The notes below the pieces were generated by a model. The model searched no databases and was not told the origin of the DNA. It was given only the letters and a program-made list of their open reading frames with translations. This document shows positions 4,438-63,858 of a stretch of DNA of 64,000 nt, piece after piece (positions within the stretch are counted from its first letter, which is position 1; every line of letters starts with the position of its first letter). The DNA comes from Teichococcus aestuarii (GTDB lineage: Bacteria; Pseudomonadota; Alphaproteobacteria; Acetobacterales; Acetobacteraceae): assembly GCF_003116135.1 (NCBI RefSeq), contig NZ_PDOA01000002.1, positions 372,001-436,000 of the forward strand. Direction: 5' to 3'. A program made the translations under genes and the position numbers.

Positions 4438-4487
4438 AGGGAGGAAGGGGCATCGCAGTGCCGCGTTTCATCGCGGCGTCACGCGCA

Positions 4488-4503: not shown

Positions 4504-4517
4504 GCCGCGCGCTGCCT

Positions 4518-5258
4518 TCAGCCCATCCCGAGCACATGCTTCATGTCGTAGAGGCCGGCCGGCTGCCGCGCCGCCCACAGCGCCGCCCGCACCGCGCCGG
4601 TGGCATAGACGCGCCGGTCGAAGCTGCGGTGGGTGAGGGCGATGTGCTCGCTGCCGGCGGCGAAGAGCAGGGTGTGCTCGCCCACCACCTGCCCGCCGCG
4701 CAGCGCGGCGAAGCCGATCGGGCCGGTGGCGCGGGGGCCGGTATGCCCGTCCCGGCCACTCTCCATGCCGACCTCCTCCAGCGTCTTGCCGCGCCCGCGC
4801 GCCACGGCGCGGCCGAGGCCGATGGCGGTGCCGGAGGGGGCGTCCACCTTCTGCCGGTGGTGCATCTCGACGATCTCGGCGTCGTACTGCTCGGGCGGCA
4901 GGGCGGCGGCCATGCGCTCGGCCATGGCGAAGAGCAGCGCCACGCCGGGCGAGAAATTGGCGGCATAGACCACCGGCACGGACTCCGCCGCCGCGGCCAC
5001 CGCCGCCTCCTGCGCCGCCGAGAGGCCGGAGGAGCCGAGGATGAGCGGCTTGCCGTGCCGCGCCGCCAGCGCCGCATGCGTCTCGGCCGTGGCGGCGTTG
5101 GTGAAGTCGATCACCACCTGGCTCTGCGCGAAGAGCGCGCCGGCATCGTCGCCGCGCCCGGTGCCGCCGGCCAGGGTGGCGCCGGCGGCCGCCACCTCCT
5201 CGGTGAGAAGCGTGCCCATGCGGCCCGAGAGGCCGGCGATGCCGATGCGGAGCGTCAT
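4518..5258 (-). CDS. dapB: 4-hydroxy-tetrahydrodipicolinate reductase DapB
   Basis: Reduces the dapA product in the lysine/diaminopimelate pathway, using NAD(P)H. The 246-residue protein begins MTLRIGIAGLSGRMG (Rossmann glycine motif), has VVIDFTNAAT and the conserved segment EIVEMHHRQKVDAPSGTA that carries the catalytic His and Lys and the substrate-binding residues. The same frame stays open far upstream through dnaJ, but the start is set by ATG at 5258 immediately before the GxxGxxG motif. A 14-of-16 match to parS lies 2 bases upstream of the start codon. It follows dnaJ by 71 bases on the same strand. Confidence 0.95.
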   Translation of the reverse strand: MTLRIGIAGLSGRMGTLLTEEVAAAGATLAGGTGRGDDAGALFAQSQVVIDFTNAATAETHAALAARHGKPLILGSSGLSAAQEAAVAAAAESVPVVYAANFSPGVALLFAMAERMAAALPPEQYDAEIVEMHHRQKVDAPSGTAIGLGRAVARGRGKTLEEVGMESGRDGHTGPRATGPIGFAALRGGQVVGEHTLLFAAGSEHIALTHRSFDRRVYATGAVRAALWAARQPAGLYDMKHVLGMG

Positions 5259-5260
5259 GC

Positions 5261-5276
5261 TGTTTCCCGTGAAACG
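5261..5276. promoter_or_regulatory. Degenerate parS-like site
   Basis: TGTTTCCCGTGAAACG differs from the parS palindrome TGTTTCACGTGAAACA at two of 16 positions, one of them in the core. It is in the short dnaJ-dapB spacer, about 15 kb from the two perfect parS sites near parAB. It may be a weak ParB site, a decayed one, or chance. Confidence 0.4.
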
Positions 5277-5329
5277 GAGGGCGGGTGCCGGGGGAGGGGG
5301 TGCCTCCTCCGCCCGGCGCGGCGGCTGTT

Positions 5330-6493
5330 CTACCGCCCCAGCCCGTCCCAGAAATCCTTCACCTTGGCGAAGAAGCCTTCGCTCTCGGGCGAGGAATTGC
5401 CGTTCTGCCCCACCTCGCCCTCGAACTGCTCCAGCAGCTCGCGCTGGCGGGCGGTGAGGTTCTGCGGCGTCTCGACCGCCACCTGCACATACATGTCCCC
5501 CCGCGCCGCCGAGCGCAGCACGGAGAAGCCCTTGCCGCGCAGGCGGAACTGGTCGCCCGTCTGGGTGCCGGCGGGGATGGTGACGCGCGAGCGCCCGCCA
5601 TCGATGGTCGGCACCTCCACCGCGCCGCCCAGCGCCGCCTGCGTCATGCGCAGCGGCACCCGGACGAAGATGTTGGCGCCGTCGCGCTGGAACAGCGCGT
5701 GCGGGCGGACGGCGATGTCCACGTAGAGATCGCCCGCCGGGGCGCCGCGCAGCCCGGCCTCCCCCTCGCCCGAGAGGCGGATGCGCGTGCCGTCCTCCAC
5801 CCCGGCCGGGATGGTGACGTTCAGCGTCCGCTCGCGCTGCACGCGGCCGGCGCCCTGGCAGACCTTGCAGGGGTTCTTGATGACGCGCCCGGTGCCGCCG
5901 CAGGTGGGGCAGGTGCGCTCGATCAGGAAGAAGCCCTGCTGCGCCCGCACCTTGCCGGCGCCGGCACAGGTGGTGCAGGTCTGCTGCGCGCTGCTGGCCT
6001 TGCCCTCGGCGCCGGTGCCGTCGCAGGCGTCGCACTGCACGCTGGTGGGCACGCGGATGGTCGTGCGCGTGCCGGCGAAGGCCTCCTCCAGCGAGATGTC
6101 CACCGCGTGGCGCAGATCGGCGCCGCGGCCGGCCGCCGCGCCGCCGCCGCGCCGCCCGGCGCCGCCGCCGAACTGGCCGAACATCTCGGCGAAGATGTCC
6201 TCGAAGCCGCCGCCGCCGAACGGGTTGCCGCCGCCGAAGCCGCCGGCACCCGGCCCGCCGCCGCCGCCCTCGAAGGCGGCATGGCCGAAGCGGTCATAGG
6301 CGGCACGCTTCTCGGCGTCCTTCAGCACGTCATAGGCCTCGTTCACCTCCTTGAAGGAGGTCTCGGCGGCCTTGTCGCCCGGGTTGCGGTCCGGGTGATA
6401 TTTCATGGCGAGCTTGCGGTAAGCCTTCTTCAGCTCATCCTCGCCCGCGCCCCGGGCCACGCCCAGGGTCTCGTAGTAGTCCTTCTTGGCCAT
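5330..6493 (-). CDS. dnaJ: Chaperone protein DnaJ
   Basis: Co-chaperone that delivers clients to DnaK and stimulates its ATPase. The 387-residue protein has the J domain ([20 protein letters not shown], with HPD in YHPDRNPGD), a long Gly-rich region with an FGG-rich stretch, the zinc domain with four CxxCxGxG-type repeats ([36 protein letters not shown]) and the C-terminal client-binding domain. It lies 107 bases downstream of dnaK on the same strand, as in most alphaproteobacteria. ATG at 6493 is the obvious start ([11 protein letters not shown]). Confidence 0.97.
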
Positions 6494-6600
6494 GGTGCGG
6501 CCTGTCCCCCAAGCTCCGGAACGACGATGCGCCCGACCCCTTCGTCGGAGCCGGGCGCCCGTGGATTCAGCGCGGCTGATTCACCCTAGCGCTGGGCGCC

Positions 6601-8520
<1,920 letters not shown>

Positions 8521-47725: not shown

Positions 47726-49012
47726 TCAGCGGGGTGCGGCGGTGCCGGGGAAGCCGGCCTCGGCCGGGTACATCAGCTCGGGCACGGCGATGTTGAGCTG
47801 GCCGTGATGCAGCCGGTGCACCGCCGCGCGCACCGCCACATCCAGCCCCGGCCGGTTGTAGTAGACGCCGCGTATGTGCAGCTGATGCGCGATGCAGCGC
47901 AGGAAGCCCTCGCGCAGCGCCGGGTCGGGCGGGGTCGCTTCCGTCCAGAAGCGGTCCAGCGGGCCGGAGAAGACCAGGCCGGGAATGCGGTAGAGCGCCT
48001 CGCCCAGCGCGAAGGTCGGGGTGTGGTCGATGATGGAGCGCAGCCCCACCGTGCTGTTGACGGTGACGGTGCCCTGCACCTGCTCGACGATGGCGCCCAG
48101 ATTGCCGCCCCCCAGATAGTGCATCCGCGCCGAGACCCCCGCCGCCTCGGCGATGCGGCGGGTGCGCCGCTTCCAGTTCTTCAGCCCCGGGTCGAGCGGA
48201 TGCACCTTCACCAGCAGATGCGCGTCGGCGGGCGCATGGGCGGCGAAGCTCTCCGCCACCTCGCGCAGCGCCGTGTCCAGGTCGGGATAGCGGGAATAGG
48301 CGCGGATGGAGAAGTCGCTCTCCATCTGCATCGCCATCAGGAAGAGCGGGCCGGTGCCGGAGAGGCGCTGCAGGATGGCGTCCGCCCGGCGGTTGTCCCG
48401 CCCGCGCTGCAGCAGCCGCAGCCCGACGCCCATGTAGTACAGCGCCGGGTGCTGCAGCAGGTGCGTGCGGTAGTGGGGGAAGGGCCAGGGCAGGGCGCTG
48501 CTCAGATGGTAGAGCATGTCCCACCGTGCCTGGCGGGCGAAGCTGTCCTTGTTGCGCACGATCAGGTCGGGCGGCGGCAGGCTGGCGCCGGTGCGCAGGA
48601 TGGTTTCCGGGTCGCGGGTGAACAGACTGGCCGCGTTCATGCCGTCCCGCTCGAGCACGATCCAGTCGGGGCGGATGTAGCCGAAATCGGTGGTGGCGAC
48701 GTGGATGCCGCGCGCATGCGCGGCGGCGATGGCGGCCTTGTGATAGCTCCGCTGCTCGCCCAGCAGCACCAGGTCGGTGACGCCGTGGCGGTCGAGGAAG
48801 GCTTCGACGAAGGCCGGCCATTCCTCGGCCCGGCCGCGGAAATCCACCGCGCCCGGGCCGCGCCAGAACAGCCTGTCGCCGAGGTTCAGGTTGATCCGGT
48901 GCACGGCATGTCCCAGCGCCCGCAGCCCGGCGCCAACCTCGTCGAAGAACGGCGTGATCGGTCCCTGCAGGAAGAGGAAGCATCGTGAAGCCGGATCGGC
49001 GGGGCTGCTCAT
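47726..49012 (-). CDS. KpsS/RkpJ-like capsule polysaccharide biosynthesis protein
   Basis: 428 residues, soluble, of the Capsule_synth family: RCFLFLQGPITPFFDEVGAG, VTDLVLLGEQRSYHKAAIAA, LLVKVHPLDPGLKNWKRR, VTVNSTVGLRSIIDHTPTFA and ALYRIPGLVFSGPLDRFW. KpsS and KpsC add the beta-Kdo linker to the phospholipid anchor of group 2 capsules; RkpJ is the rhizobial relative. It is the last gene of a minus-strand row that includes a PKS and an oxoamine synthase. ATG 49012 (MSSPADPASR) fits; the frame is open further upstream. Confidence 0.87.
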   Translation of the reverse strand: MSSPADPASRCFLFLQGPITPFFDEVGAGLRALGHAVHRINLNLGDRLFWRGPGAVDFRGRAEEWPAFVEAFLDRHGVTDLVLLGEQRSYHKAAIAAAHARGIHVATTDFGYIRPDWIVLERDGMNAASLFTRDPETILRTGASLPPPDLIVRNKDSFARQARWDMLYHLSSALPWPFPHYRTHLLQHPALYYMGVGLRLLQRGRDNRRADAILQRLSGTGPLFLMAMQMESDFSIRAYSRYPDLDTALREVAESFAAHAPADAHLLVKVHPLDPGLKNWKRRTRRIAEAAGVSARMHYLGGGNLGAIVEQVQGTVTVNSTVGLRSIIDHTPTFALGEALYRIPGLVFSGPLDRFWTEATPPDPALREGFLRCIAHQLHIRGVYYNRPGLDVAVRAAVHRLHHGQLNIAVPELMYPAEAGFPGTAAPR

Positions 49013-49109
49013 CGGCGGCGGCGGGTTCTCGTCTGCGGCGGTCGGAGGGGCGGGGCTTCCGGCCCGCCGCGCGGAATGAAGGGCAGGGCCGCCATGGGCA
49101 TGGCGCGCG

Positions 49110-49958
49110 CTACCCGACAGGCGCGGCCAGGGCCGCATGCAGGTCCTCCCAGCCGACGGTCCGCTGGCCCTGCCACGCCATCTCCCGCAATGCCCCGGCC
49201 GATGGAAATGGGCAATAGGGCGCGCCAGGCTGTGACAGGTCCTGCGGCCGGCCCGCCGGCGGCGCGGCGGCGGCCTCCAGCGCCGCCAGCAGCGGCCCGA
49301 GCAGCGCGGCGCCGGCCTCGTGCAGCAGCCGGGCCGCGGTGCTGGCGGTGACGCCCGGCGGCAGCGCCATCGCCTGCTGCGCCAGGATGGCGCCGGCATC
49401 GATGCGCGGCACCATGCGGTGCACCGTCACGCCGAAGGCGGGCGGCGTCTCCCGCATCGCCCAGAGGGTGGGCACCGGGCCGCGGTGGCGCGGCAGCAGC
49501 GAGGGATGCACGTTGATGCCCCCCAGCGGCGCCAGGGCCAGGATTTCGGCGCGCAGGATCTGGTCGAAGTGGAAGGACAGGATCAGGTCCGGCCGGGCCG
49601 CGCGCAGCGCGGCGGCCATGGCGGGGCCGTTGACGTCCTCCACCGCCAGGAGCGGGATGCCCCGCCGCCGCGCGAAGCCGCTCAGCGCGCCACGGCCCAG
49701 GGCCCGGCGCAGCCCGCCCAGCGCCTGCGGCAGGCCGTAATTGACCAGCAGGTAGGGCAGCAGGCGGGGGCCGGAGCGGCGCCAATGGGCGCGCATCTGC
49801 CCGGGCATGCCGCCGGCGGCGGCGCGGTAGGGCAGGGAGCGGCCGATCAGCACGATCCGCTCCGCCTGCTGCTCCGCCAGCCGCAGCACCGCCGCGGCGC
49901 TGAGCGCGCTCTCCAGGGTCAGCAGGGCGATGCGCATGCCGCCCGCCCGAGCCCCCAT
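49110..49958 (-). CDS. Formyltransferase-domain protein
   Basis: 282 residues with the formyl-transferase N-domain: MRIALLTLESALSAAAVLR, PDLILSFHFDQILRAEILA, GGINVHPSLLPRHRGPVPTL (the NxHxSLLPxxRG signature) and RIDAGAILAQQAM (the conserved Asp). Methionyl-tRNA formyltransferase is unlikely because the usual C-domain is absent; sugar-amine N-formyltransferases are the closest functional class. ATG 49958 follows AGGAGG by 4 bases; ATG 49937 (MRIALL) matches the fold start better. In context it may N-formylate an amino sugar or the oxoamine product. That is inference. Confidence 0.82.
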   Translation of the reverse strand: MGARAGGMRIALLTLESALSAAAVLRLAEQQAERIVLIGRSLPYRAAAGGMPGQMRAHWRRSGPRLLPYLLVNYGLPQALGGLRRALGRGALSGFARRRGIPLLAVEDVNGPAMAAALRAARPDLILSFHFDQILRAEILALAPLGGINVHPSLLPRHRGPVPTLWAMRETPPAFGVTVHRMVPRIDAGAILAQQAMALPPGVTASTAARLLHEAGAALLGPLLAALEAAAAPPAGRPQDLSQPGAPYCPFPSAGALREMAWQGQRTVGWEDLHAALAAPVG

Positions 49959-49963
49959 CCGGC

Positions 49964-49996
49964 CTCCTGCCCGATCTCCTGCCCGATCTCCTGCCG
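49964..49996. repeat. 12-base tandem repeat carrying Shine-Dalgarno motifs
   Basis: Nearly three copies of CTCCTGCCCGAT (plus strand). On the minus strand each unit reads ATCGGGCAGGAG, so three AGGAG motifs stand in a row just upstream of the formyltransferase start, the last extended to AGGAGG. Confidence 0.8.
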
Positions 49997-50007
49997 GCCG
50001 GGGCGCC

Positions 50008-51342
50008 TCACGCGCCGAGGCCGGGCAGGCTCTCGACGCGGCCGATGCCGGAGACGGCCTGGCTCAGCGCCTCGGCCGCCTGGTCGAGATCCGCCGCGCT
50101 GTGCTCGGAGGAGATGAAGAAGCGCAGCCGCGCGGATTGCTCCGGCACGGCGGGGAAGGTGACGGTCTGCACCGCCACGCCGCGCTCCAGCAGCGCCGCC
50201 GCCACCTTCGCCGTGCGCACCGAGGAGCCGAGGATGACCGGCAGCACGGCGCCGCCCTGGCTGGTGCCGGTGTCGAAGCCGCGCGCGCGCAGCCGCTCCC
50301 GCAGGCCGAGGCCATTGGCCTGCAGCCGTGCCACCCGCTCCGGCTCGGCGCGCAGGATGCGCAGCGATTCCAGCGCGGCGGCGGCCAGCGCCGGCGGCAG
50401 CGCCACGGAATAGACGAAGCCCGGCGCGGTGTGGCGCATCCAGTCGATCAGGTCGGCCCGCGCGGCGATGTAGCCGCCGCAGGCGGAGAGCGTCTTGGAG
50501 AGCGTGCCCATCCAGATGTCGACGCCGGCGGGATCGACGCCCTGCGCCTCGGCGATGCCCTGGCCGGTGGCGCCCAGCACGCCGAGGGAATGCGCCTCGT
50601 CCACCATCAGCCAGGCATCGTGGCGGCGGGCGATCTCGATGCAGCGGGCGAGGTCGGGGCTGTCGCCATCCATGCTGTAGTGGCCCTCCACCAGCAGCAG
50701 GGCGCGGGCCGCCTTGCCCGCGCCGCGCCGGGCCGCCGCCAGCTCCCGCTCCGCCGCGCCCAGATCGTTGTGCGCGAAGGGGATGCGCCGGGCGCCGGAG
50801 AGGCGGACGCCCTCGGTGCAGGAATTGTGGATGGCCGCGTCGTGCACCACGATGTCGCGCGGGCTCATGAGGTGGCCGATGGTGGTGACGTTGGTGGCGT
50901 GGCCGGAGACGAAGGTGAGCGCCGCCTCGGTGCCGTGCAGCGCCGCCAGCGCGCGCTCCAGCTCGCGGTGCAGCTCCCGCTCCCCCGAGAGGATGCGCGA
51001 GCCGGAGGGCGAGACGCCGTAGCGGTCCACCGCCGCCTTGGCCGCCGCCAGCACGCGCGGGTCGCCGTTCAGGCCGAGGTAGTTGTAGCTGGTGAAGTTG
51101 ACGACCGCGCGCCCCTGGATGCGGCTGTGCGCGCCGGCCAGCCCGTCATGCGCCTGGAACAGCGGGCTCGGCATGTCGAGCGATTGCAGCGCGGTCTTCA
51201 GCAGGCCGAAATCGCGCATGCCGGGCAGGGTGGTGAAGTCGCGCGCGCTGCCCGCGTCGGGCGCCGGCGCCTCGCCGCTGCGCCGCTTGGAGAGCCGCGC
51301 CAGCAGCGCCATCCGCGCCGTGGCGCTGAGCCCGCCGCTCAT
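50008..51342 (-). CDS. Alpha-oxoamine synthase (AONS/KBL/SPT-like, RkpG/WcbT type)
   Basis: PLP enzyme, 444 residues, that condenses an acyl thioester with an amino acid and loses CO2. Landmarks: VNFTSYNYLGLNGDPRVL, YGVSPSGSRILSGERELH, FVSGHATNVTTIG, VEGHYSMDGD, MVDEAHSLGVLGATGQG (248-260) and the PLP lysine in GTLSKTLSACGGY (Lys283). It has a 60-residue N-terminal extension compared with BioF. It follows a PKS that lacks a thioesterase, so it probably releases the polyketide/fatty chain as a 2-amino ketone. RkpG of rhizobia and WcbT of Burkholderia are the nearest described analogues. The amino acid used is unknown. Confidence 0.86.
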   Translation of the reverse strand: MSGGLSATARMALLARLSKRRSGEAPAPDAGSARDFTTLPGMRDFGLLKTALQSLDMPSPLFQAHDGLAGAHSRIQGRAVVNFTSYNYLGLNGDPRVLAAAKAAVDRYGVSPSGSRILSGERELHRELERALAALHGTEAALTFVSGHATNVTTIGHLMSPRDIVVHDAAIHNSCTEGVRLSGARRIPFAHNDLGAAERELAAARRGAGKAARALLLVEGHYSMDGDSPDLARCIEIARRHDAWLMVDEAHSLGVLGATGQGIAEAQGVDPAGVDIWMGTLSKTLSACGGYIAARADLIDWMRHTAPGFVYSVALPPALAAAALESLRILRAEPERVARLQANGLGLRERLRARGFDTGTSQGGAVLPVILGSSVRTAKVAAALLERGVAVQTVTFPAVPEQSARLRFFISSEHSAADLDQAAEALSQAVSGIGRVESLPGLGA

Positions 51343-51507
51343 GCGCCCGCCCCGCGGGCGGGGTGGATCGGAGAGAGGGTCATGCGTGCTGCGTGTCCAT
51401 GGGCCATGGTCCGGGCCGTTCGTGGGCGCTGCCCCCGGCCCGTGCCGGCGGGGCGGCGTGCGGGGAGGATAGCCGGTCCGGGGCGGGTCCGCACCCGCCC
51501 CGGGCCA

Positions 51508-54500
51508 TCACGAAGTCGCTTCGGCCGGGTGCCCGGCCGGGCCGGCGCTGGGCTCGAACTGCTCCACCAGCTCGGCGATCGCCTCCTCGGCGCGGCCGCC
51601 GGCCAGGCCCTCAGCCAGCTTGCGGGTCAGCAGGTCGATGGTCAGATCCTCGCTCACCGAGGCCAGCGGCACCTGCATTCCCAGCCGCCGCTCCAGCGCG
51701 CCGCGCAGCTCGAGGCCGCCCAGGCTGTCGAGCCCGAGGCCGGCCACGGGCGCGTCGAGCGGCACCGCCTCGGGCGGCAGGCGCAGGATGCGCGCCACCT
51801 CCTCCTGCACCACCTGGCGCAGCAGGGCGCGCGCCTCCTCCGGCGGCAGGGCGAGCAGATGGGCCTGCAGCCCGGCTGCCTCCAGGCTGGTCTCGGCGCG
51901 GCCGCGCACCTCGGAGAAGAGCGGCTCCTCCAGGATCGGCAGCGCCATGCGCGCCTCCCGCCAGGCGACATGCGCCAGCCCCAGCACCGGCGCGCCGCTC
52001 TCCAGCAGCGCCGGCAGGGCGGAGAGCGCCTCGGCCGCCGCCATCGGCGCCACGCCCAGGCGGCGGGCCAGGGTCCCGGCGGTGGCGGCGTTGCCGGCGA
52101 GGATGCCGGCATCGGCGATCGGGCCCCAGGCCACCGCCAGCGCCGGCAGCTCCTCGGCATGGCGGCGCCGCGCCAGCGCCTCCAGCGCCATGTTGGCGGC
52201 GACGTAGTTGGCCTGGCCCGGATTGCCCATCGCCGTGGTGGCGGAGGAGAACAGCAGGAACAGCGAGACCGGGTCCCGCCGTGTCAGCCGGTCGAGATTC
52301 CCGGCGATGGCGAGCTTCGGCGCCAGCACGGCGGCGAAGCGGCGGGCGTCGAGCGCAATGGCGGCGGCGTCGTCGAAGGCGGCGGCGGCGTGCACCACCC
52401 CCGCCAGCGGCGGCCCCTCGGCGCGGATGGCGGCGAGCGCGCCCTCCAGCGCCGCGGCATCCGTGGCGTCGGCCGCGTGCACGGTGGCGCGGGCGCCCAG
52501 CGCCGCCAGCGCCGTCACCGCCGCCTCCGCCCCCGGCGTGGTGCCGCCGCGGCGCGAGAGCAGGGCGAGGTGCCGCGCGCCGCGCGCCGCCAGCCACTTG
52601 GCGCATTCGAAGCCGAAGCCCTGCACGCCGCCCACCACCAGGATGGTGCCCTCGGGCGGCACCCAGGCGGGGCGGGGCGGGGTGCGCGGCATGGCGGGCG
52701 GCACCAGCACCAGCTTGCCGATGTGGCTGCTGGCCTGCAGCGCGCGGAAGGCGGCCTCCACCTCGGTAGCCTGGCGCGCCGCGTGCGGCAGCGGGTGCAG
52801 CAGCCCGTCGGCGAAGCGCTGGGCGATGTCGGTGAGCAGGCGGCGCGCCAGTATGGGCCGCGCCTTCGGCAGCTGGTCCACATCCACGCCGAAATAGGTG
52901 AGGTTGTGGCGGTAGGGGCGCAGCCCGACGCGGCGGTTCTCGAAGAAGTCCCGCTTGCCCAGCTCGACGAAGCGGCCGAAGGGCTTCACCAGCCCGAGGC
53001 TGCGCTCCATCGCCTCGCCGGCGAGCGAGTTCAGCACCACGTCCACCCCCTCCGGCCAGGCGGCGCGGAGCTGGTCGGCGAAGCCGGGGTCGCGGCTGTC
53101 CAGCACCAGCTCGGCGCCGGCGGCGCGCAGCAGGGCGCGCTTGGCCGGCGTGCCGGCGGTGGCGGCGATGCGCGCCCCCGCCGCCTGCGCCACCTGCAGC
53201 GCGGCCAGCCCCACCGCGCCGGCGCCGCCATGGATCAGCACCGTCTCGCCGGCCTCCAGGCGGGCGCAGTTCTCCAGCGCGTAGATGGCGGTGAGGAAGG
53301 CCACCGGCACGGTGGCGGCGGCGGCGAAATCCAGCCCCGGCGGCACGCGCGTCACCGCCTCGGCGCGGGTGCGCACGCGGCTGGCCAGCGCCGCGGGGGC
53401 GAAGCCGAACACCGCCTCGCCCGGGCGGAAGGCGACGTCCGGCCCGGCCTGCTCCACCACGCCGGCCATCTCCATGCCCAGCGTCGGGCCGGCGAAGCCG
53501 AGCAGCAGCGCCTCCTCCGGCAGCAGCCCCTGCGCCCACATCAGGTCGCGGAAGTTCAGCCCGGCGGCCTCGACGCGCACCACCACCTCGCCCGGGCCGG
53601 GCGGCGGCAGGTCGAGCGGCTCCCATTCCAGCGTGCCGAGCTGGCCGGGCTGGCGGATGGCCAGCCGCGCCGGGCCCTGCGGCGCGGCGGCGGCGGGCTT
53701 CGCGCCGGGGCGCAGGCGCGGCGCCAGGCGCGCGGCCGGGGTCAGGTGCAGCTCCGGCTCCGCGCCGGCGCCCAGCAGCTCGGGCAGCAGGCGGGCGGCG
53801 GCCTCCTGCGGCGCCAGCGCGGCATCCAGCCCGATGCGGCGCGGCCGCAGCTCCGGCATCTCGTTGGCCAGCACCCGGGCCAGGCCGTGCAGCGCGGCGG
53901 CCTCCGGCATGTGCAGCGCGTCGGCGGTCAGCAGGGTGAAGGCCCGGGCGCGGCCGCGCGCCGCCTCGGCCAGGGCGGTGACCTGCGCCAGCGTGGCCGC
54001 CAGCGCCTCCGCCCCGGGGGCGGCCAGCACCACCGCGTGAATGCCGGACAGGGTGCGCGGCGGCTGCCGCGCGGCCCCGGCCAGCGGCAGGGCGGTGACG
54101 CCGGCGCCGGCCCCGGCCAGGGCGGCCGCCAGGGCCTCGGCCAGCGGCGCGCTGGCCTTGTCATGGTGCAGCTGCAGGGCGATGGCGGGCGGCGGCAGGG
54201 AAGGCGCCCCACCCTCGCCGGCCGCCGGCTGTGCCGCGCGGGCGCCGATCAGCAGCGCCGGCCAGGGCGCCGAGCCGAGCGGCGCGATCCAGGCGCGCTC
54301 CACATCCGGGGCGGCGCAGGCGGCTTCCCAGCCGGCGGCGTCGGGCAGCGGGGGCGCGCCATGGTCCCACCAGCCCGCATCCTGGCCGCAGGTGAAGGTC
54401 CAGGCGCGGCCGGGCAGCGGCTCGGCCAGCAGCAGGGCGCCGCCGCCGGCCAGCAGGCCGCCCAGCGTGCCGAGCAGGGCGGTGCCGCGCCGCGCGCGGG

Positions 54501-57500
54501 CGGCGGCGGCAAGCCCCACCACGAGGTCCGCGCCCAGCCCGGCCGGGGCGGGGGCGCCCGGCTCCCAGGCCTCAAAGCCGAAGACGATGTTGCCGGCATG
54601 CGGCGGGATGGCGGCGGCGCGGGCATCGCCCGGCGCGCCGGTGGCGGTGTAGCGCACCGGCCGGCCGCTGGCGCCCAGCACGGCCAGCAGCCGCCGCGTC
54701 AGCGGCCCGCCATTGGCGCCCAGCTCCAGCACCCGCAGCGGCCGCCCCGGCGGCCAGCCGGCGACGAAGCGCCCCACCGCCTGGGCCAGCACGGCGGCCA
54801 GCCGCTCGAAGCCCAGCGCATCGGGCGGCGGCAGGCTCTCGGGCTGCGATTCGCCGGAGAGCGCCTGCGGCAGGCGCTCGGCCGCCAGGGCCAGCCAGCC
54901 CAGCTCATGCGCCAGCGCCGGGCTCTCGGCCAGCACGGCGCGCCAGATGTCGCCGGCTTCCGGCAGGTCCTCCGGCGGCGGCAGCAGCCAGCCCTTGGGG
55001 CCCGGCTCGGCCAGCCCGTCCTCGGCCAGGGCGCGCAGCAGCGACAGCGCGTAGGGCGAGAGGCCGGCCGCCGGCAGCAGCCCCGACACCCCGGCGCGGG
55101 CACGCAGCGCCGCCTGGGCGCTGGACACCACATGGCCCTCCAGCAGCAGCGCCGTCTCGCTCAGGTCGTGCTCGGCATCCTCGGCCAGGGCGGCGCGCAG
55201 GGCGGCGTCCAGGTCGACCGACGGGGCGGGGCCGGGCGCCGCCTCCAGCGCCTGCGGCTCGATGCGGAACACCGCCTCCGCCACGGTGGGGCGTGGGGCG
55301 AGGCGGATGGACTGCATCCAGCCCTCCTCCAGCTGCGCCACGACCTGCCCGTTGCCGTCGCGCAGCCGGGCCGCGTACTGGCCGGAGCGGCTGCCGCGGT
55401 GCAGCAGCGCCAGCTCGGCGCTGACCGGCACGGGCGCGCCGCGCCGCAGCAGCAGCCGGCCGAAGCGCACCGGCACCACGGCGGTGCCCTCCTCCTCCCG
55501 CTGGCCGGGGGCGAACAGCGCCACCAGCCCGTGCAGCGCCGCGTCCAGCCGCACCGGGTGCAGCAGCCAGCCGGCCGAGTCGGGCGGCGCCGCCGCGGGC
55601 AGGACGAGGCGCACCCCGGCCTGCCGGCCATCGGCGGACAGGGTGGCTTCCGCCGCCGCCTGGAAGGCGGGGCCGTAATCCAGCTGCAGGCGGCGGGCGA
55701 TGGCGAGGATCTCCCCGCCCTCCAGGCGCGGCCCTTCCAGCGTGGGGGGCGGGGCGGCGTCCAGCGCCGCCGGGGTAGCGGCGGCCGCCTGGCCGCGCGC
55801 GTGCAGGGTCCAGCCCTCGCCGGTCAGGCGCGGCCGGCTCTCGATCTGGAACAGGCCGTTCTCCGGCTCCAGCACGAAGCGCAGCTCGCGCGCCGAATCG
55901 GCGGAGAGCGGCAGGGCGCGCAGGATCTGCACGTCGCGCAGCTCCAGCACCGGCGCCTCCGGGAAGTGCTGGGCGGCGGCGGCGAGCGCCATCTCCAGCA
56001 TGGCGGCGGCGGGCAGCACCGGCTCGCCGCCCAGCCGGTGGTCGGCCAGCCAGGGTTCCTGCGCCGTGTCCAGCAGGCGCGACCAGCGCCCCGCCTCGTT
56101 GCCCTGGCGGAAGCCGAGCAGCGGGTGCTCGGCCACCGGGTCGGTCAGCCGCACGGTCTCCTGCGTGGCGGCGAACCAGTGGCGCTGCCGCTCGAAGGGC
56201 GTGAAGGGCAGGCCGCGCCGCGCCGCCGGGCCCTGCCAGGCGGGGCCGCCGCGCGGGTCGGCGCCCAGTGCCAGGGCGCGGTCGGCCAGCGCCGGGAAGG
56301 GGTCGCCCGGCGGGTCGCGGCGGCTGAGGCTGGCCAGCACCGGCGCCTCCGCCTCGGCGGCGCGCAGGCTCTCGCGCAGATAGGATTGCAGCACCGGGTT
56401 GGGGCCGATCTCCAGGAACAGCCGGGCGCCGGCATCCACCGCCGCCTGCACAGCCGCCTGGAAGCGCACCGGGGCGCGCAGGTTCTGCCACCAGTACTCG
56501 GCGTCCAGCGCCGCGCCCGGCAGCTTGGTGCCGGTGACGGAGGAGAGGAAGCCGATCCGCCCCGCGCCCGGGGCCTCCTGGGGGGCGAAGCCTTCCAGCT
56601 CGGCCAGCAGCGCCTCGCGCACCGGGTCCATGGCGGCGGAGTGGAAGGCGTAGTCGAGATCGAGCCGCACGGCGGCCAGGCGCTGCGCCTTGGCGGCCGC
56701 CACCAGCGCGTCGATCGCCGCCTCCGGCCCGGCCACGGTGATGGCGTCCGGCGCGTTGTAGGCGGCGATCTCGGGGCGCCAGCCGGATTCGTCGGGCGGG
56801 CAGGCGGCCAGCAGCGGCGCCGCCGCCTCGGCTCCGGCGCCGATCGCCGCCATGCGGCCCTGGCCGCGCCGGCTGTGCTGGGCGCGGGAGCGCGCCACCA
56901 CCAGCCGCGCCGCCTGCGCCATGGTGAGGATGCCGGCCGCCTGCGCCGCCGCCACCTCGCCCACCGAATGGCCCAGCACGTAGTCCGGCCGGATGCCCTG
57001 CGCGGCCAGCGCCGCCAGGATGCCGTGCTGCACCAGAAAGAGCAGCGGCTGCGCGCGGTCGGTGCCCGCGAGGTCGTCGGCGGTGGCGCCCGCCGCCAGC
57101 AGCGCGGCGCCGGACCAGCCGGTGAGCGGCGCCAGCACCGCGTCCGCCGCCGCGACGGCGGCGCGGAAGGCGGCGTTGTGCGCCATCGCCTCCCGCGCCA
57201 TGCCGGCGAACTGCGCGCCATTGCCGGAGAAGACGAAGGCGATGTGCCCGCCCGCGCCGCGCTTGGCGACGCCATGCGTCACCCCCTCCGGCCGGGCGCC
57301 GGCGAGCCAGCCCTCCAGCCCGGCGCGCAGGGCCGCGGCATCCTCGCCGCGCAGCGCCAGGCGGTGGCCGTGCAGGTCGCGGTGGCGGCCGAGGCCGCGG
57401 CGGAGCGGCAGGGTGTCCGTGCCGTCCTCCAGCCGGTCCCGCCAGCGGGTGGCCAGTGTCTTCAGCGCGGCGGCGGAGCGGGCGCTCAGCACCAGCGGCG

Positions 57501-58875
57501 GCGCCGGCCCGACGTCAGCAGGTTGGGCGGCGTCAGGCTGGCTGGTGGCAGGCTGGCTGGTGGCAGGCTGGGGAGGGGCGGCCCCCAGCAGCACCGAGGC
57601 GTTGGTGCCGCCGAAGCCGAAGCTGTTGACGCCGGCCACCGCGCCCGGCGGCAGCGCCTCCAGCGCGGTGGGGACGCGCAGGTTCAGCCCGGCGAAGTCG
57701 ATGTTCGGGTTGGGCGTGCTGAAATGCAGGTTGGGCGGCACCGCGCCCCGCTCCAGCACCAGCATGGCCTTGAGCAGGCCGGCGATGCCCGAGGCCGGCT
57801 CCAGATGGCCGATATTGGTCTTCACCGAGCCGATGGCCAACGGCGTGGCGCGGCCCTGCGCCAGCGCGGTGCCGATGGCCCAGGTCTCGGCCGGGTCGCC
57901 GGCCTGGGTGCCGGTGCCATGCGCCTCGAAATAGGCGATGTCGTCCCGCGCCACGCCGGCCTCGGCCAGCACGCGCTGCAGCAGCGCTGCCTGCGCCTCG
58001 CGGTTGGGCAGGGAGAGGCCGATGGTGCGGCCGGCGGCGTTGGTGCCGGCGGCCAGGATGACGCCGCGGATGGCATCGCCCGCCGCCAGCGCCGCCGAGA
58101 GCGGCTTCAGCACCACGAGGCCGGCGCCCTCGCCGCGCACATAGCCGTCCGCCGCCGCGTCGAAGGCCTGGCAGCGGCCGCGCGCCGAGAGCATGCCGGC
58201 GCGCGAGAAGCCGACGAAGGCGAAGGGCGAGAGCAGCATCTGCACGCCCCCCACCAGCGCCGCCTCCACCCGCCCCGCGCGCAGCGCCGCCACCGCGGCC
58301 TCCAGCGCCACCAGCGAGGAGGAGCAGGCGGTGTCCACCGTCTGGCCGGGGCCGCGCAGGTCGAACACGTTGGTCAGGCGGTTGGCCAGGATCGACAGCG
58401 TGTTGCCGGTCATGAAGTAGCGGTCGGCGCCGGGGGAATCGCCCAGGCGCAGCTCGGCATAGTCGGTCGAGGAGCCGCCGACCCAGACGCCCACGGCGCG
58501 GCCGGCGAGCTGGCTGGCCGGCCAGCCCGCATCCTCCAGCGCCTCGGCCGCCACCTCCAGCAGCAGGCGCTGCTGCGGGTCCATCTCGGCGGCCTCGCGC
58601 GGGGAGAGGCCGAAGGCGGGGGCGTCGAAGCCGGAGATGTCGCCCAGATGCGCGGCGGCGAAGCTGTAGGAACGGCCCGGCTCGCCCTTGCGCGGGTGGT
58701 GGAAGGCGGCCTGGGTGAAGCGGTCCGGCGGCAGGGTGCCGACGCAGTCGCGCCCGGCGGCCATCATGTCCCAGAAGCCATCCAGATCCTTGGCACCCGG
58801 CAGCCGGCAGGCGGCGCCGATGATGGCGACCGGTTCAGCGGCGCGCATGGCGGATGGAGTCGGTCCTTGAGTCAT
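51508..58875 (-). CDS. Reducing type I polyketide synthase (RkpA/WcbR-like)
   Basis: 2455 residues, one complete module. KS about 14-430: DTACSSS with Cys184, EAHGTGT with His319, KTNIGH with His357. AT about 545-850: GHSVGE with Ser637 and YAFHS, a form near malonyl-type. DH about 915-1190: HRLGGEPVLP with His946 and HPVRLDAALHG with Asp1111. A methyltransferase-like region about 1210-1560 keeps only a vague SAM motif (VLELGANGG, 1382-1390). ER about 1740-2050: IHGGAGAVGLAAL. KR about 2077-2260: GGVQGFG and NYVAAN with Tyr2224. ACP: GLDSLGGLEL with Ser2384. No thioesterase. It can fully reduce each added unit, like a fatty acid synthase. ATG 58875; ATG 58848 is an alternative. Confidence 0.93.
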   Translation of the reverse strand: MTQGPTPSAMRAAEPVAIIGAACRLPGAKDLDGFWDMMAAGRDCVGTLPPDRFTQAAFHHPRKGEPGRSYSFAAAHLGDISGFDAPAFGLSPREAAEMDPQQRLLLEVAAEALEDAGWPASQLAGRAVGVWVGGSSTDYAELRLGDSPGADRYFMTGNTLSILANRLTNVFDLRGPGQTVDTACSSSLVALEAAVAALRAGRVEAALVGGVQMLLSPFAFVGFSRAGMLSARGRCQAFDAAADGYVRGEGAGLVVLKPLSAALAAGDAIRGVILAAGTNAAGRTIGLSLPNREAQAALLQRVLAEAGVARDDIAYFEAHGTGTQAGDPAETWAIGTALAQGRATPLAIGSVKTNIGHLEPASGIAGLLKAMLVLERGAVPPNLHFSTPNPNIDFAGLNLRVPTALEALPPGAVAGVNSFGFGGTNASVLLGAAPPQPATSQPATSQPDAAQPADVGPAPPLVLSARSAAALKTLATRWRDRLEDGTDTLPLRRGLGRHRDLHGHRLALRGEDAAALRAGLEGWLAGARPEGVTHGVAKRGAGGHIAFVFSGNGAQFAGMAREAMAHNAAFRAAVAAADAVLAPLTGWSGAALLAAGATADDLAGTDRAQPLLFLVQHGILAALAAQGIRPDYVLGHSVGEVAAAQAAGILTMAQAARLVVARSRAQHSRRGQGRMAAIGAGAEAAAPLLAACPPDESGWRPEIAAYNAPDAITVAGPEAAIDALVAAAKAQRLAAVRLDLDYAFHSAAMDPVREALLAELEGFAPQEAPGAGRIGFLSSVTGTKLPGAALDAEYWWQNLRAPVRFQAAVQAAVDAGARLFLEIGPNPVLQSYLRESLRAAEAEAPVLASLSRRDPPGDPFPALADRALALGADPRGGPAWQGPAARRGLPFTPFERQRHWFAATQETVRLTDPVAEHPLLGFRQGNEAGRWSRLLDTAQEPWLADHRLGGEPVLPAAAMLEMALAAAAQHFPEAPVLELRDVQILRALPLSADSARELRFVLEPENGLFQIESRPRLTGEGWTLHARGQAAAATPAALDAAPPPTLEGPRLEGGEILAIARRLQLDYGPAFQAAAEATLSADGRQAGVRLVLPAAAPPDSAGWLLHPVRLDAALHGLVALFAPGQREEEGTAVVPVRFGRLLLRRGAPVPVSAELALLHRGSRSGQYAARLRDGNGQVVAQLEEGWMQSIRLAPRPTVAEAVFRIEPQALEAAPGPAPSVDLDAALRAALAEDAEHDLSETALLLEGHVVSSAQAALRARAGVSGLLPAAGLSPYALSLLRALAEDGLAEPGPKGWLLPPPEDLPEAGDIWRAVLAESPALAHELGWLALAAERLPQALSGESQPESLPPPDALGFERLAAVLAQAVGRFVAGWPPGRPLRVLELGANGGPLTRRLLAVLGASGRPVRYTATGAPGDARAAAIPPHAGNIVFGFEAWEPGAPAPAGLGADLVVGLAAAARARRGTALLGTLGGLLAGGGALLLAEPLPGRAWTFTCGQDAGWWDHGAPPLPDAAGWEAACAAPDVERAWIAPLGSAPWPALLIGARAAQPAAGEGGAPSLPPPAIALQLHHDKASAPLAEALAAALAGAGAGVTALPLAGAARQPPRTLSGIHAVVLAAPGAEALAATLAQVTALAEAARGRARAFTLLTADALHMPEAAALHGLARVLANEMPELRPRRIGLDAALAPQEAAARLLPELLGAGAEPELHLTPAARLAPRLRPGAKPAAAAPQGPARLAIRQPGQLGTLEWEPLDLPPPGPGEVVVRVEAAGLNFRDLMWAQGLLPEEALLLGFAGPTLGMEMAGVVEQAGPDVAFRPGEAVFGFAPAALASRVRTRAEAVTRVPPGLDFAAAATVPVAFLTAIYALENCARLEAGETVLIHGGAGAVGLAALQVAQAAGARIAATAGTPAKRALLRAAGAELVLDSRDPGFADQLRAAWPEGVDVVLNSLAGEAMERSLGLVKPFGRFVELGKRDFFENRRVGLRPYRHNLTYFGVDVDQLPKARPILARRLLTDIAQRFADGLLHPLPHAARQATEVEAAFRALQASSHIGKLVLVPPAMPRTPPRPAWVPPEGTILVVGGVQGFGFECAKWLAARGARHLALLSRRGGTTPGAEAAVTALAALGARATVHAADATDAAALEGALAAIRAEGPPLAGVVHAAAAFDDAAAIALDARRFAAVLAPKLAIAGNLDRLTRRDPVSLFLLFSSATTAMGNPGQANYVAANMALEALARRRHAEELPALAVAWGPIADAGILAGNAATAGTLARRLGVAPMAAAEALSALPALLESGAPVLGLAHVAWREARMALPILEEPLFSEVRGRAETSLEAAGLQAHLLALPPEEARALLRQVVQEEVARILRLPPEAVPLDAPVAGLGLDSLGGLELRGALERRLGMQVPLASVSEDLTIDLLTRKLAEGLAGGRAEEAIAELVEQFEPSAGPAGHPAEATS

Positions 58876-58990
58876 TCCATATGCTCTGCGGCCGGCAGGA
58901 GAGGCCGCGCAAGAGAAGCGTCAGGGAAAAAGCCGAGGATGAAGCCAGCCAGCTTGCCGGGCGCGGACGAAGCCCCGTCCGGCAGGACTG

Positions 58991-60337
58991 TCATGACATG
59001 GCCGCATCCCGCGCGGCAACGCCGCCGGCCATGCCGCGCCAGCTGTTCGCGGCCTCGGCGCGCCCTGGCAGCCGCTTCTGCAGCCCTGTCATCCGCCAGG
59101 CGGGGTCGGTGACCTGCCAGAGCAGGTCGTCCACCTGCCCGAAATGCTCGGCCCAGCTCGGGGTCTGCCAGCCTTCCATGCGGCGCAGCTGCGCCTCGCG
59201 CGACTGGCTGCCGGGGGTGGCGTAGTCGATCACGGCATTGCGCCAGGCGCTGCCATCCAGCGGGTCGAGGTAGTCCGGCACGGCGCCGCCCACCTCGCGC
59301 AGCGCCGGCAGGTCGGAGCAGATGACCGGCAGCCGCACCGCCAGCGCCTCGGCCAGCGGCAGGCCATAGCCCTCGGCGAAGGAGGGGAAGAGCAGGGCGC
59401 GCGCGCCCTGCAGCAGCTCGGCCACCATGCGGTCCGGCAGCTGGCCCACCTCCTGCACCAGCCCCTTCAGCACGGTGCAGCGCTCCAGGATGTCGACGAC
59501 GTTCTCGTTCTCCCAGCCGCGCTTGCCGATGACCAGCAGCCGCGGCGTGGCGGCGCCGTGCCGGCGCGCCAGCTCCCGCCACAGATGCAGCAGCAGCAGG
59601 TGGTTCTTGCGCGGCTCGATGGTGCCGAGGGTGATGAAGTAGGGGTCGATCGGCGTGCCGTGCGACGGCGTGGACTGGGTGTCGATGCCGAGCGGCGCCA
59701 CCACCACGGGCGGCGGCGCGGCGCGCCCGGACAGATAGGGCGACAGCGCCTCGGCGGTGGCGACGGAATTGACGATCACGCCATCCGCCAGGGCGGCGGT
59801 GGTGTTGATGCGGCGCAGATGCTTCTCCGCCTGGCCGGGGCGTGCGTATTCCGGATGGGTGACGGGGATCAGGTCGTGGATCAGCGGCACGAAGGCGCAG
59901 CCGGCGCGGCGCATCGCCTCGATCGGCCCGCTGCGGTCCAGCGCCTGGTGGGAGACGAGCAGGAAGGCCAGCCGGCGCGTGCCGTTCATCAGCCGCGCGA
60001 GGTCGGAGCGGCCGAGGCCGAGCAGCAGCCGCCCCCGCCCCAGCCCGCCGATGCGCGCCGCGGTGCGGAAGGCCGGGCCATTGGCCAGCCCGCTGCTCCA
60101 GGCCTCGGTGAGGGCGGCGACGAGATCGGCCACCAGGCGGCGGGGCAGCATGGCGAAGCCGCCCTGCAACTCCTGCCCCACGAAGCTGCAGGAATCCGGC
60201 GGCGCCGCCAGCCAGCGCCGCGCATAGGCGAGTTCGACGCGATCAATGCCCGACGGGGTGCGCTTGCGGCCGCAGCTGAGCAGCCGGGAGACATCCAGAA
60301 TCACGTGCAGGCCGTCGGCGCGCGAGTCAAAGGGCAT
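58991..60337 (-). CDS. Glycosyltransferase family 1/GT4-type
   Basis: 448 residues, GT-B fold. The donor-binding C-domain shows FITLGTIEPRKNHLLLLHLW, LLVIGKRGWENEN, LPDRMVAELLQGARALLFPS and SFAEGYGLPLAEALAV (the E-x7-E motif). The N-domain begins VILDVSRLLSCGRKRTPSGIDRVEL, a form seen in mannosyl-type transferases of surface-polysaccharide loci. First gene of the capsule-like row, 115 bases before the PKS. The sugar donor cannot be deduced. ATG 60337 fits. Confidence 0.88.
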   Translation of the reverse strand: MPFDSRADGLHVILDVSRLLSCGRKRTPSGIDRVELAYARRWLAAPPDSCSFVGQELQGGFAMLPRRLVADLVAALTEAWSSGLANGPAFRTAARIGGLGRGRLLLGLGRSDLARLMNGTRRLAFLLVSHQALDRSGPIEAMRRAGCAFVPLIHDLIPVTHPEYARPGQAEKHLRRINTTAALADGVIVNSVATAEALSPYLSGRAAPPPVVVAPLGIDTQSTPSHGTPIDPYFITLGTIEPRKNHLLLLHLWRELARRHGAATPRLLVIGKRGWENENVVDILERCTVLKGLVQEVGQLPDRMVAELLQGARALLFPSFAEGYGLPLAEALAVRLPVICSDLPALREVGGAVPDYLDPLDGSAWRNAVIDYATPGSQSREAQLRRMEGWQTPSWAEHFGQVDDLLWQVTDPAWRMTGLQKRLPGRAEAANSWRGMAGGVAARDAAMS

Positions 60338-60584
60338 CGTCGATCCCCAGAAGGGCGGCGGGCTCGGCGCACCGCCCTAGTTGGTAAGCAGTAATGACTT
60401 ATGCTGCGACCGCGAAGAAAAGTAACTCACGAAAAAGTGGGTTTCCCCTGATTTTCCGGTTTCGCGTCATGCGAGTAGCGAAAGCTTGGCAGCGTCGGCT
60501 TTCGCCTTCCGGTAGTAATAGCGGCGCTTACGGGTTGTGTCGCGTCGAAAATGATCGGGCGATTGATCGTTATTGGTTTATTCG
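60338..60584. other. A+T-richer spacer upstream of the capsule-like genes
   Basis: A 247-base gene-free stretch with visibly lower GC than all around it, and the longest A/T-rich run in the window. It must contain the promoter for the minus-strand glycosyltransferase-PKS row, but no convincing -35/-10 pair could be assigned. A direct repeat of GATCG about 12 bases apart is at 60554-60569. The neighbouring dehydrogenase end (60585-60610) shares the low GC. Confidence 0.6.
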
Positions 60585-61700: not shown

Positions 61701-62453
61701 ATGACGGTGGAGCGGAGAATCTTGGTCACGGGCGCGTCGAGCGGCATCGGCGCCGCCACGGCGCGGGCGCTCGCCGGGCCGGGCGTGGCGCTGGCCGTGC
61801 ACGCCCGCAACAACCGCGCGGGGGCGGAGCGCGTGGCGGCGGAGGCCCGCGCGCGCGGCGCCGAGGCCACCGTGCTGCTGGCCGACCTGGCCGCGCCGGA
61901 CGCCCCCGCGCGGCTGGTGGCCGAGGCCGCCGCCGCCCTGGGCGGGCTGGACGTGCTGGTCTCCAACGCCGGCTTCGCCGACCGCACGCCGGTGGCGCAG
62001 CTCACGGACGAGGCCTTCGCCCGCAGCCAGGACACCATCCTGACGGCGCTGTTCCGCCTGGCGCGCGCCGCGGGGCCGCTGCTGGCGGCGGGGCGGGCGC
62101 CGCGGCTGGTCGCCGTCTCCTCCTTCGTGGCGCACAATTTCCGCACCGACAGCGCGGTGTTCCCCGCCTCCGCCACGGCCAAGGCGGGGGTGGAGGCGCT
62201 GGTGAAGGCGCTGGCGCTGGAATGGGCGCCGGCGGTCACCGTCAACGCCGTGGCGCCAGGCTACACGCAGAAGGACTCCGGCGCGCATGCGGCGCTGGAC
62301 GCGAAGGCGTGGGAGGCGGTGGTCGCCCGCATCCCGCTGCGTCGCCTGGGCCTGCCGCAGGACGTGGCGGAGGCGATCGCCTTTCTCGCCTCGGAGCGGG
62401 CCGGCTACATCACCGGGCAGGTGCTGCATGTCGATGGCGGGGTGGTGGTGTAG
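61701..62453 (+). CDS. SDR-family oxidoreductase with atypical active site
   Basis: 250 residues. Classical SDR layout: ILVTGASSGIGAATARAL, LDVLVSNAGFAD, LVAVSSFVAHNF, VTVNAVAPGYTQKD, ITGQVLHVDGGVVV. At the YxxxK position the sequence is SATAK, so the catalytic Tyr is replaced by Ser while Lys is kept. The cofactor site is intact. It may be inactive, use another residue, or have a shifted role. ATG 61701 follows GGGAGGCAGGC. Divergent from the dehydrogenase gene, convergent with the Bug protein gene. Confidence 0.87.
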   Translation: MTVERRILVTGASSGIGAATARALAGPGVALAVHARNNRAGAERVAAEARARGAEATVLLADLAAPDAPARLVAEAAAALGGLDVLVSNAGFADRTPVAQLTDEAFARSQDTILTALFRLARAAGPLLAAGRAPRLVAVSSFVAHNFRTDSAVFPASATAKAGVEALVKALALEWAPAVTVNAVAPGYTQKDSGAHAALDAKAWEAVVARIPLRRLGLPQDVAEAIAFLASERAGYITGQVLHVDGGVVV

Positions 62454-63578: not shown

Positions 63579-63654
<76 letters not shown>

Positions 63655-63671
63655 ACAGGAAGCGAGGCGGC

Positions 63672-63700
63672 GATATAGCGGCGGTGCGGGCGCCGTGCAA
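63672..63700 (-). promoter_or_regulatory. Promoter of tRNA-Ala copy 1
   Basis: TTGCAC (63695-63700), 17 bases, TATATC (63672-63677) on the minus strand. The tRNA begins 18 bases after the -10. Confidence 0.65.
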
Positions 63701-63749
63701 GCGGCCTTGCGGCGGGCTCTTGAAGGGCGGTTCAGAGGCCGGAAATGCA

Positions 63750-63777
63750 ACAGGCCGCCCGTTGCCGGGCGGCCTGT
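63750..63777 (-). terminator. Hairpin after tRNA-Ala copy 2
   Basis: An 11-bp perfect stem (ACAGGCCGCCC / GGGCGGCCTGT), followed on the minus strand by TGCATTTCC. It begins 5 bases after the tRNA. The T-run is weak. Confidence 0.75.
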
Positions 63778-63782
63778 GGAAC

Positions 63783-63858
<76 letters not shown>

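Follow-up and report, generated by a model that had tools for sequence, protein, structure and literature searches.

An oxoamine synthase and formyltransferase operon of Teichococcus aestuarii and its proposed N-formyl sphingoid lipid

What lipid is made by the capsule loci of rhizobial and Burkholderia type, and what would a formyltransferase contribute to such a locus? To our knowledge, the first question has awaited an answer ever since the rkp genes were first reported. Both are raised by a gene set of Teichococcus aestuarii (Acetobacteraceae) that lies in a stretch of 64,000 nucleotides, hereafter the window (contig NZ_PDOA01000002.1, positions 372,001 to 436,000), forming part of a 5.2-Mb genome (G000, contig C30). 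At window positions 47726–60337, on the minus strand, genes for a GT4-type glycosyltransferase (GT4), a polyketide synthase (PKS), an alpha-oxoamine synthase (AOS), a formyltransferase (FT) and a KpsS-like protein follow one another 5' to 3'. From this gene content, and from an exchange of the FT gene for another gene in sister loci, we infer a lipid and a role for it as an anchor. It is probable, though by no means assured, that the locus makes an N-formyl sphingoid lipid on which an ABC-exported capsule, linked through 3-deoxy-D-manno-oct-2-ulosonic acid (Kdo), is built.

The exchangeable gene beside the oxoamine synthase

The operon opens with GT4 (58991–60337; 448 aa; Pfam Glycos_transf_1, 4.4e-15), followed by a monomodular reducing type I PKS (51508–58875; 2455 aa; recognized by Pfam domains and motifs) and an AOS of the RkpG/WcbT/SgaB kind (50008–51342; 444 aa; Aminotran_1_2, 1.3e-51). 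The folate-type N-formyltransferase (49110–49937; 275 aa; Formyl_trans_N, 8.7e-21) lies within a longer open reading frame (ORF) starting at 49958, and the last gene encodes a KpsS-like member of the Kdo-transferase family (47726–49012; 428 aa; PF05159 Capsule_synth, 2e-67, or 1.2e-67 in a search of its own genome). A preliminary description of the window had named these five genes as a capsule-lipid locus with FT between AOS and kpsS, and the ORF coordinates and Pfam families bear out the set, its exact position and strand, and that placement. Its comparison with the rkp and wcb loci also stands, as a PKS without a thioesterase adjoins an AOS of the appropriate type.

In eight Acetobacteraceae loci that lack FT (L203–L208, L212 and L213), a GNAT-like protein of 373–404 aa is encoded between AOS and KpsS, and in two more (L210, L211) it lies 3' of AOS, with KpsS not in the arrangement. 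When these slot GNATs were searched by tblastn against the FT loci fetched by then, no match was obtained in those stretches. Across a family sample of 150 Acetobacteraceae genomes, including the window's own, 44 carry the AOS; 25 of these have FT, 11 have a close slot GNAT, none has both and 8 have neither. The cut-offs (E ≤ 1e-49 for FT, ≤ 1e-100 for AOS and ≤ 1e-120 for the slot GNAT) were chosen after the score lists had been viewed. For FT the score gap is wide (169 to 56 bits), with the 19 weaker of 45 family genomes dropped; for the GNAT it is narrow (413.6 to 361.4 bits), and a position check placed the gene next to AOS in 10 of the 11 genomes and elsewhere in the other (G011). Lower-scoring GNATs are found among the 26 FT genomes (4 of them) and among the 8 genomes with neither gene (5 of them).

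The exchange is seen most directly within the genus. The window and L203 align at about 80–85% in two blocks, one running from the 5' dehydrogenase gene to 50018 in AOS and the other from 48981 in KpsS across the oxidase genes; short intergenic gaps are excepted, as is a 91-base end piece (76%). The sole gene exchanged between the two loci is FT. On an AOS tree, the FT and GNAT states change eight times (55 rows, 40 labelled) or seven times (49 rows, 38 labelled), these being states of the genome rather than of the slot alone, as FT is not adjacent to AOS in four FT rows of the larger tree and three of the smaller. Grouping the GNAT-linked AOS sequences as a single clade was rejected (p = 1.65e-59), and FT and GNAT have therefore been exchanged more than once. 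The swap in the window's own genus may have gone in either direction, because an approximately unbiased test found a sister relationship of the window and L036 to the exclusion of L203 compatible with the data (p = 0.43). KpsS keeps its place throughout these swaps.

The slot GNAT itself is, by its sequence, related to the bacterial ceramide-synthase family of CC_1154 and YghO. The slot GNATs of L203 and of L227, the latter from another family, are respectively 34% and 39% identical over their full length to the GNAT of L289. That locus encodes an epimerase-type dehydrogenase, an acyl carrier protein, a serine-palmitoyltransferase-like enzyme, LptF, LptG, the GNAT and a fatty-acid hydroxylase, and its arrangement resembles the Caulobacter ceramide region (compare PMC11324152). 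Both L227 and L289 come from one genome (G306), which thus carries both kinds of GNAT. Slot GNATs are also 31–36% identical to YghO of Escherichia coli K-12 (hhalign probability 100), a protein named as a putative regulator in its K-12 record; a profile search against PDB gave no significant match. CC_1154 is described as required for dihydroceramide and is the proposed N-acyltransferase CerS (PMC11324152), and both it and yghO of E. coli BL21 have been placed among the acyl-CoA N-acyltransferases of dihydroceramide synthesis (PMC9386255). Because FT alternates with a relative of ceramide synthase at one AOS-adjacent position, it most simply modifies the same amine. Of the two substrates offered in the preliminary description, a lipid amine or an amino sugar, the lipid amine is thus favoured and the amino sugar disfavoured. 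In the window's genome, a search for a CerS-related GNAT gave no match at E 1e-30 or 1e-20.

Co-occurrence of the formyltransferase and the oxoamine synthase

The named FT loci are the best 80 of 231 FT relatives, and many of the fetched stretches end at contig ends. GT4, PKS, AOS and KpsS are all present in 16 of the 80, with PKS, AOS and KpsS in 22 more; within the family, 11 of 25 FT loci have GT4 together with the other three. GT4 precedes PKS wherever a stretch includes both, and the order GT4-PKS-AOS-FT-KpsS is recurrent. At least one of AOS, PKS and KpsS lies within the stretch in 67 of the 80 loci. AOS and FT are adjacent on the same strand in 46 fetched loci and overlap in 15 (some genomes having been fetched twice). 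In 31 of 57 cases, PKS and AOS share a 4-bp overlap. Directly 5' of FT, a gene of the short-chain dehydrogenase/reductase (SDR) cluster is found in 37 loci, from Methylobacteriaceae and one metagenome-assembled Beijerinckiaceae genome, and overlaps FT in 25 (again with some genomes fetched twice). The window FT itself shares 86% identity with that of Pseudoroseomonas rhizosphaerae YW11, which places the host with Pseudoroseomonas-like Acetobacteraceae.

A strong FT occurs in 26 of the 150 family genomes, and AOS is present in 25 of these (Fisher 1.6e-15, kinship ignored). In a class sample of 289 genomes, AOS was found in 13 and FT in 3, and all three FT genomes, the window's own included, have AOS. 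The association also extends to unlinked genes, since AOS lies elsewhere in the genome for 11 of 12 metagenome-assembled relatives whose FT stands apart from it (the exception being L072/G435). The possibility that FT stands beside these genes by chance, which the preliminary description had set against its own proposal, is ruled out by this co-occurrence, linked and unlinked, together with the in-place exchange.

Two loci depart from the usual arrangement. In L054 (G076), the PKS and AOS matches lie in separate pieces near FT, at about 9.5–16.4 kb, in either a decayed locus or one with sequencing frameshifts. In L068 of Pseudoroseomonas aerophila (3431–7348), AOS and FT stand some 4 kb apart, with other genes between them, one of these TctC-like.

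A proposed route to the lipid and its capsule

By Pfam, the PKS has the domain order KS-AT-DH-ER-KR-ACP without a thioesterase, and some 540 aa between DH and ER have no match; residues 1190–1760 hit no Pfam family at 0.01. The window protein has every active-site motif that was sought in the six domains, and the exact motif strings recur in 25 (KS Cys) to 39 of 39 relatives, depending on the motif, some relatives varying. The AT motifs GHSVGE and YAFH are taken by us to point to malonyl units. A seemingly degenerate motif in the linker was considered as a C-methyltransferase domain and set aside for want of a Pfam match, and a methyl branch is not claimed. By iterative use of malonyl units, the enzyme would assemble a saturated acyl chain that stays on the ACP of the PKS itself.

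The AOS, in which H172, D248, H251 and K283 are invariant across 20 aligned rows, has a serine palmitoyltransferase as its closest PDB structure (3a2b, 6e-68), and is 47% identical to an AOS of Sinorhizobium meliloti pSymB and 53% identical to one on a Pseudomonas plasmid. It is probably a serine palmitoyltransferase-like releasing enzyme, which would free the chain by decarboxylative condensation, most likely with L-serine, to give 3-keto-sphinganine. The model for this step is PfSgaB of Pseudomonas fluorescens MYb115, a serine palmitoyltransferase that condenses L-serine with acyl-CoA and whose preference for L-serine over L-alanine and glycine is almost exclusive (PMC12134224). PfSgaAB makes C24–C28 sphinganines and most likely phosphoglycerol sphingolipids as well (PMC12134224). 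The core chemistry, regarded in the preliminary description as incompletely described, has accordingly been known since 2025. On a Planktothrix agardhii plasmid (NZ_LR882937.1, 30539–31645), an AOS stretch 43% identical to that of the window lies under a feature annotated as a type I polyketide synthase, to which it is perhaps fused.

Reduction of the ketone would fall to an SDR encoded beside kpsC on another contig of the same genome (C10), where kpsM, kpsT, a Poly_export gene and a KpsE-like gene are also found, the last named from its position as it has no Pfam match. This SDR (L058, about 11.6–12.4 kb) shares 59% identity with the one that adjoins KpsC in L045, and only 29% with that of S. 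meliloti. A second SDR, in the window at 61701–62453, was considered as the missing reductase and set aside in view of the 59% match on C10. In L045, the PKS module, SDR, kpsC, kpsM, kpsT and Poly_export occur within one stretch. The likely reductase, KpsC and the export genes of this genome lie outside the window. Stand-alone AcpR and epimerase-type CerR, both found in L289, are absent from the operon.

FT is predicted to be a folate-dependent N-formyltransferase, as its Formyl_trans_N match covers the PF00551 core and its Asn-His-Asp triad (N142/H144/D180) is invariant in alignments of 21 and 30 rows; the roles of the triad residues are presumed to be those of the enzyme class. Among PDB structures it matches the ArnA formyltransferase best (4.5e-26), with query residue 90 aligned to ArnA residue 43, so that about 45 extra residues precede the aligned core. 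With 10-formyl-tetrahydrofolate as donor, FT may formylate the 2-amine, and the product would be an N-formyl sphingoid lipid, or "C1 ceramide"; in sister loci, the ceramide-synthase-related GNAT that takes its place would presumably acylate instead. The route of the preliminary description (PKS chain, sphingoid-like amine from AOS, formylation, capsule lipid) fits both the gene content and the membership of FT in the locus, with the lipid amine rather than a sugar now preferred as the acceptor.

GT4 may then add a head-group sugar, after which KpsS and KpsC would add the Kdo linker and KpsMT, the KpsE-like protein and Poly_export would export the capsule. KpsS, KpsC, KpsM, KpsT and Poly_export are all encoded in the window's genome, a set characteristic of ABC-transporter capsules. 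In other lineages, a PF00884 protein resembling lipoteichoic acid (LTA) synthase may add phosphoglycerol to the lipid, and it could thereby mimic lysophosphatidylglycerol. Such proteins recur in PKS-AOS capsule loci, at 12505–13851 of L363 (S. meliloti pSymB), 14967–16496 of L364 and 4073–5563 of L103. The gene before the S. meliloti capsule protein belongs to the same Pfam family as the LTA-synthase-like protein of the Pseudomonas plasmid, on which the genes around AOS carry the annotations phytanoyl-CoA dioxygenase, capsular polysaccharide proteins, GNAT, "LTA synthase family" and SDR. A PF00884 search that covered the window and the fetched parts of its genome gave no match. PhyH-family dioxygenases also occur in several of these loci (L084, 5772–6872; L228, 10648–11556; L364, 11213–12256), and it is possible that they hydroxylate the sphingoid chain.

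KpsS and KpsC have been described as using phosphatidylglycerol as the base of capsules (PMC11041684), and the rhizobial rkp-1 region has been credited with the production and modification of a specific lipid carrier for the secretion of K antigen (PMC4881576). The recurrence of PF00884, taken with that capsule model, suggests that a sphingoid lipid stands in for the phosphatidylglycerol anchor. A wider proposal is put forward tentatively, with rather less confidence than an even chance would warrant. The N-formyl "C1 ceramide", as the joint product of PKS, AOS, SDR and a dedicated FT, would be the membrane anchor of Kdo capsules in many Acetobacteraceae and in Methylobacterium, with N-formylation and N-acylation repeatedly swapped at one slot. 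Loci of rkp and wcb type would more widely provide sphingolipids in place of the (lyso)phosphatidylglycerol anchor of E. coli, and the RkpI-like PF00884 protein would add phosphoglycerol to these sphingolipids. If true, this would mean an N-formylated sphingolipid pathway as well as a capsule anchor of a new kind. No paper on such a pathway was found in open full texts; nor did searches of open-licence full texts yield the variant with a formyltransferase, the recurrent swap of that gene for a relative of ceramide synthase or the sphingolipid reading of the anchor, which does not prove their absence. The question of the rkp and wcb lipid, the 2025 finding of sphinganines from a PKS-AOS pair and the alternation at the slot together make the proposal directly testable by mass spectrometry.

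Competing explanations and related systems

It is conceivable, although unlikely, that FT, in the manner of ArnA and the dTDP- and GDP-amino-sugar formyltransferases, formylates an amino-sugar nucleotide used for the repeat or the linker of the capsule, and that it lies near lipid genes because all of them serve the capsule. Its best PDB match and the other matches, to sugar N-formyltransferases, would fit such a role, as would its occurrence in loci with KpsS or KpsC and the glycosyltransferase-like genes beside a weaker FT in one class genome (G426). However, FT comes after AOS or SDR, tracks AOS even when unlinked and is replaced in situ by a relative of a ceramide-synthase acyltransferase, while no sugar aminotransferase was seen among those neighbours, a part of the whole, that were scanned with Pfam. 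A rather more improbable scheme has AOS using alanine, glycine or another amino acid to give a 1-deoxy- or nor-sphingoid aminoketone, which an FT cap would keep from self-condensing, with the head group joined elsewhere. The breadth of the AOS family, the first rank of bioF among NCBIfam models and the overlap of AOS and FT in 15 of the 46 adjacent pairs, suggesting that FT acts directly after AOS, are in keeping with it; the near-exclusive serine preference of PfSgaB (PMC12134224), the serine palmitoyltransferase structure closest to AOS and the recurrent SDR partner argue otherwise. Least credible is a free, secondary-metabolite sphingolipid, for which KpsS would be only a fellow traveller. 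In P. fluorescens, sphinganines and phosphoglycerol sphingolipids are the reported products of PfSgaAB, and the main text of that report leaves capsules unmentioned (PMC12134224). Yet KpsS is the next gene in the window and stays through the FT/GNAT swaps, the module of L045 has KpsC, KpsM, KpsT and Poly_export for neighbours, and rkp-1 is said to make a lipid carrier for K-antigen secretion (PMC4881576).

Several observations weigh against an N-formyl sphingoid capsule anchor, whose lipid product, enzyme reactions and capsule are predicted from genes. The AOS scores higher with NCBIfam bioF (336 bits) than with the serine palmitoyltransferase models (292 bits), all below cut-off, and is only 35% identical to the serine-palmitoyltransferase-like enzyme of a ceramide locus; the choice of amino acid therefore leans on PfSgaB. 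The closest structural relatives of FT act on amino sugars or Met-tRNA, and the SDR is unlinked to the operon in the window's genome. In G021, one of the four FT genomes with a distant GNAT, that GNAT lies near a serine-palmitoyltransferase-like AOS and an AMP-binding gene, and FT organisms can therefore hold a ceramide pathway too. One family genome (G012, 86% complete) has FT without a clear AOS, and the weaker FT of G426 (2.6e-41) lies near SDR and glycosyltransferase-like genes on a different contig from its AOS. Thirteen of the 80 named FT loci have no AOS, PKS or KpsS in their stretch; in one (L129), KpsC and SDR adjoin FT, and the other twelve are the metagenome-assembled relatives discussed above, all of which carry a gene of cluster 16, whose single scanned member resembles a histidinol dehydrogenase gene. 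FT is also dispensable to the wider system, being absent from 19 of the 44 AOS genomes of the family. Among 150 genomes of the Pararobbsia family, it is strong in 1 of 24 with AOS (365 bits, the other 23 at ≤ 111.8 bits), and a profile search of 18 further alphaproteobacterial AOS genomes that lack FT gave no strong FT. By this distribution, FT is best regarded as a lineage-specific option of the PKS-AOS system.

The N-formyl sphingoid proposal can also be set beside known systems. PfSgaAB(C) likewise pairs an iterative reducing PKS with AOS and releases the chain by decarboxylative condensation, and a KDSR-like SDR has been proposed in its cluster, but the window operon adds FT and KpsS, and neither "formyl" nor "capsul" occurs in the main text of the source (PMC12134224). 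Sponge-symbiont swf clusters, formerly filed with wcb and rkp, also have a monomodular KS-AT-DH-ER-KR-ACP PKS, but its partners are a reductase-sulfotransferase protein (SwfB) and a radical SAM protein, with no AOS or FT listed for them in PMC3908369. Membership of the window locus in that group was rejected, as its neighbours differ, SwfB is lacking and its PKS keeps an intact HGTGT (residue 319) and DPQQR, unlike SwfA with its altered HATGT motif (PMC3908369). The wcb-type loci of Burkholderiaceae, a name that comes from PMC3908369, share the PKS and AOS pair, with capsule-type genes near some. They differ in an LpxC-family protein that separates PKS from AOS in all three loci scanned (L343, 8203–9120; L352, 8191–9084; L358, 8453–9349), in a small GNAT 3' of AOS in the one locus scanned for it (L343, 10510–11184), and in the rarity of a strong FT noted above. 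The LpxC-family protein or small GNAT is perhaps another way to edit the lipid amine.

The rkp-1 region of S. meliloti Ak57 pSymB has a PKS-sized gene, an AOS overlapping it by 4 bp, an SDR and then a capsule protein of the KpsS kind; between AOS and the capsule protein, however, it carries the SDR and a PF00884 protein instead of FT. The names rkpA, G, H, I and J are our assumption for these genes, as they do not appear in that record. Like the canonical ceramide pathway (Spt, AcpR, CerR and CerS/bCerS), the proposed route would use a serine-type AOS, ketone reduction and N-modification of the amine, and the slot GNAT is related to CerS; its chain, in contrast, would come from a PKS with its own ACP, its N-formyl group would replace N-acyl and its genes are linked to capsule genes. 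ArnA and the sugar N-formyltransferases share the PF00551 core, the triad and the likely 10-formyl-tetrahydrofolate donor with FT, which differs in its longer N-terminal part and its linkage to lipid genes.

The flanks of the operon, namely a D-2-hydroxyacid dehydrogenase gene (Pfam) on its 5' side and cytochrome oxidase genes on its 3' side, are taken as unrelated to the locus. Immediately 5' of GT4, an A+T-richer gap read off the sequence (60338–60584) is a probable promoter region. Farther along the window, tandem tRNA-Ala(ggc) genes on the minus strand (63579–63654 and 63783–63858) probably account for the repeated ORF peptides at 63579–63858.

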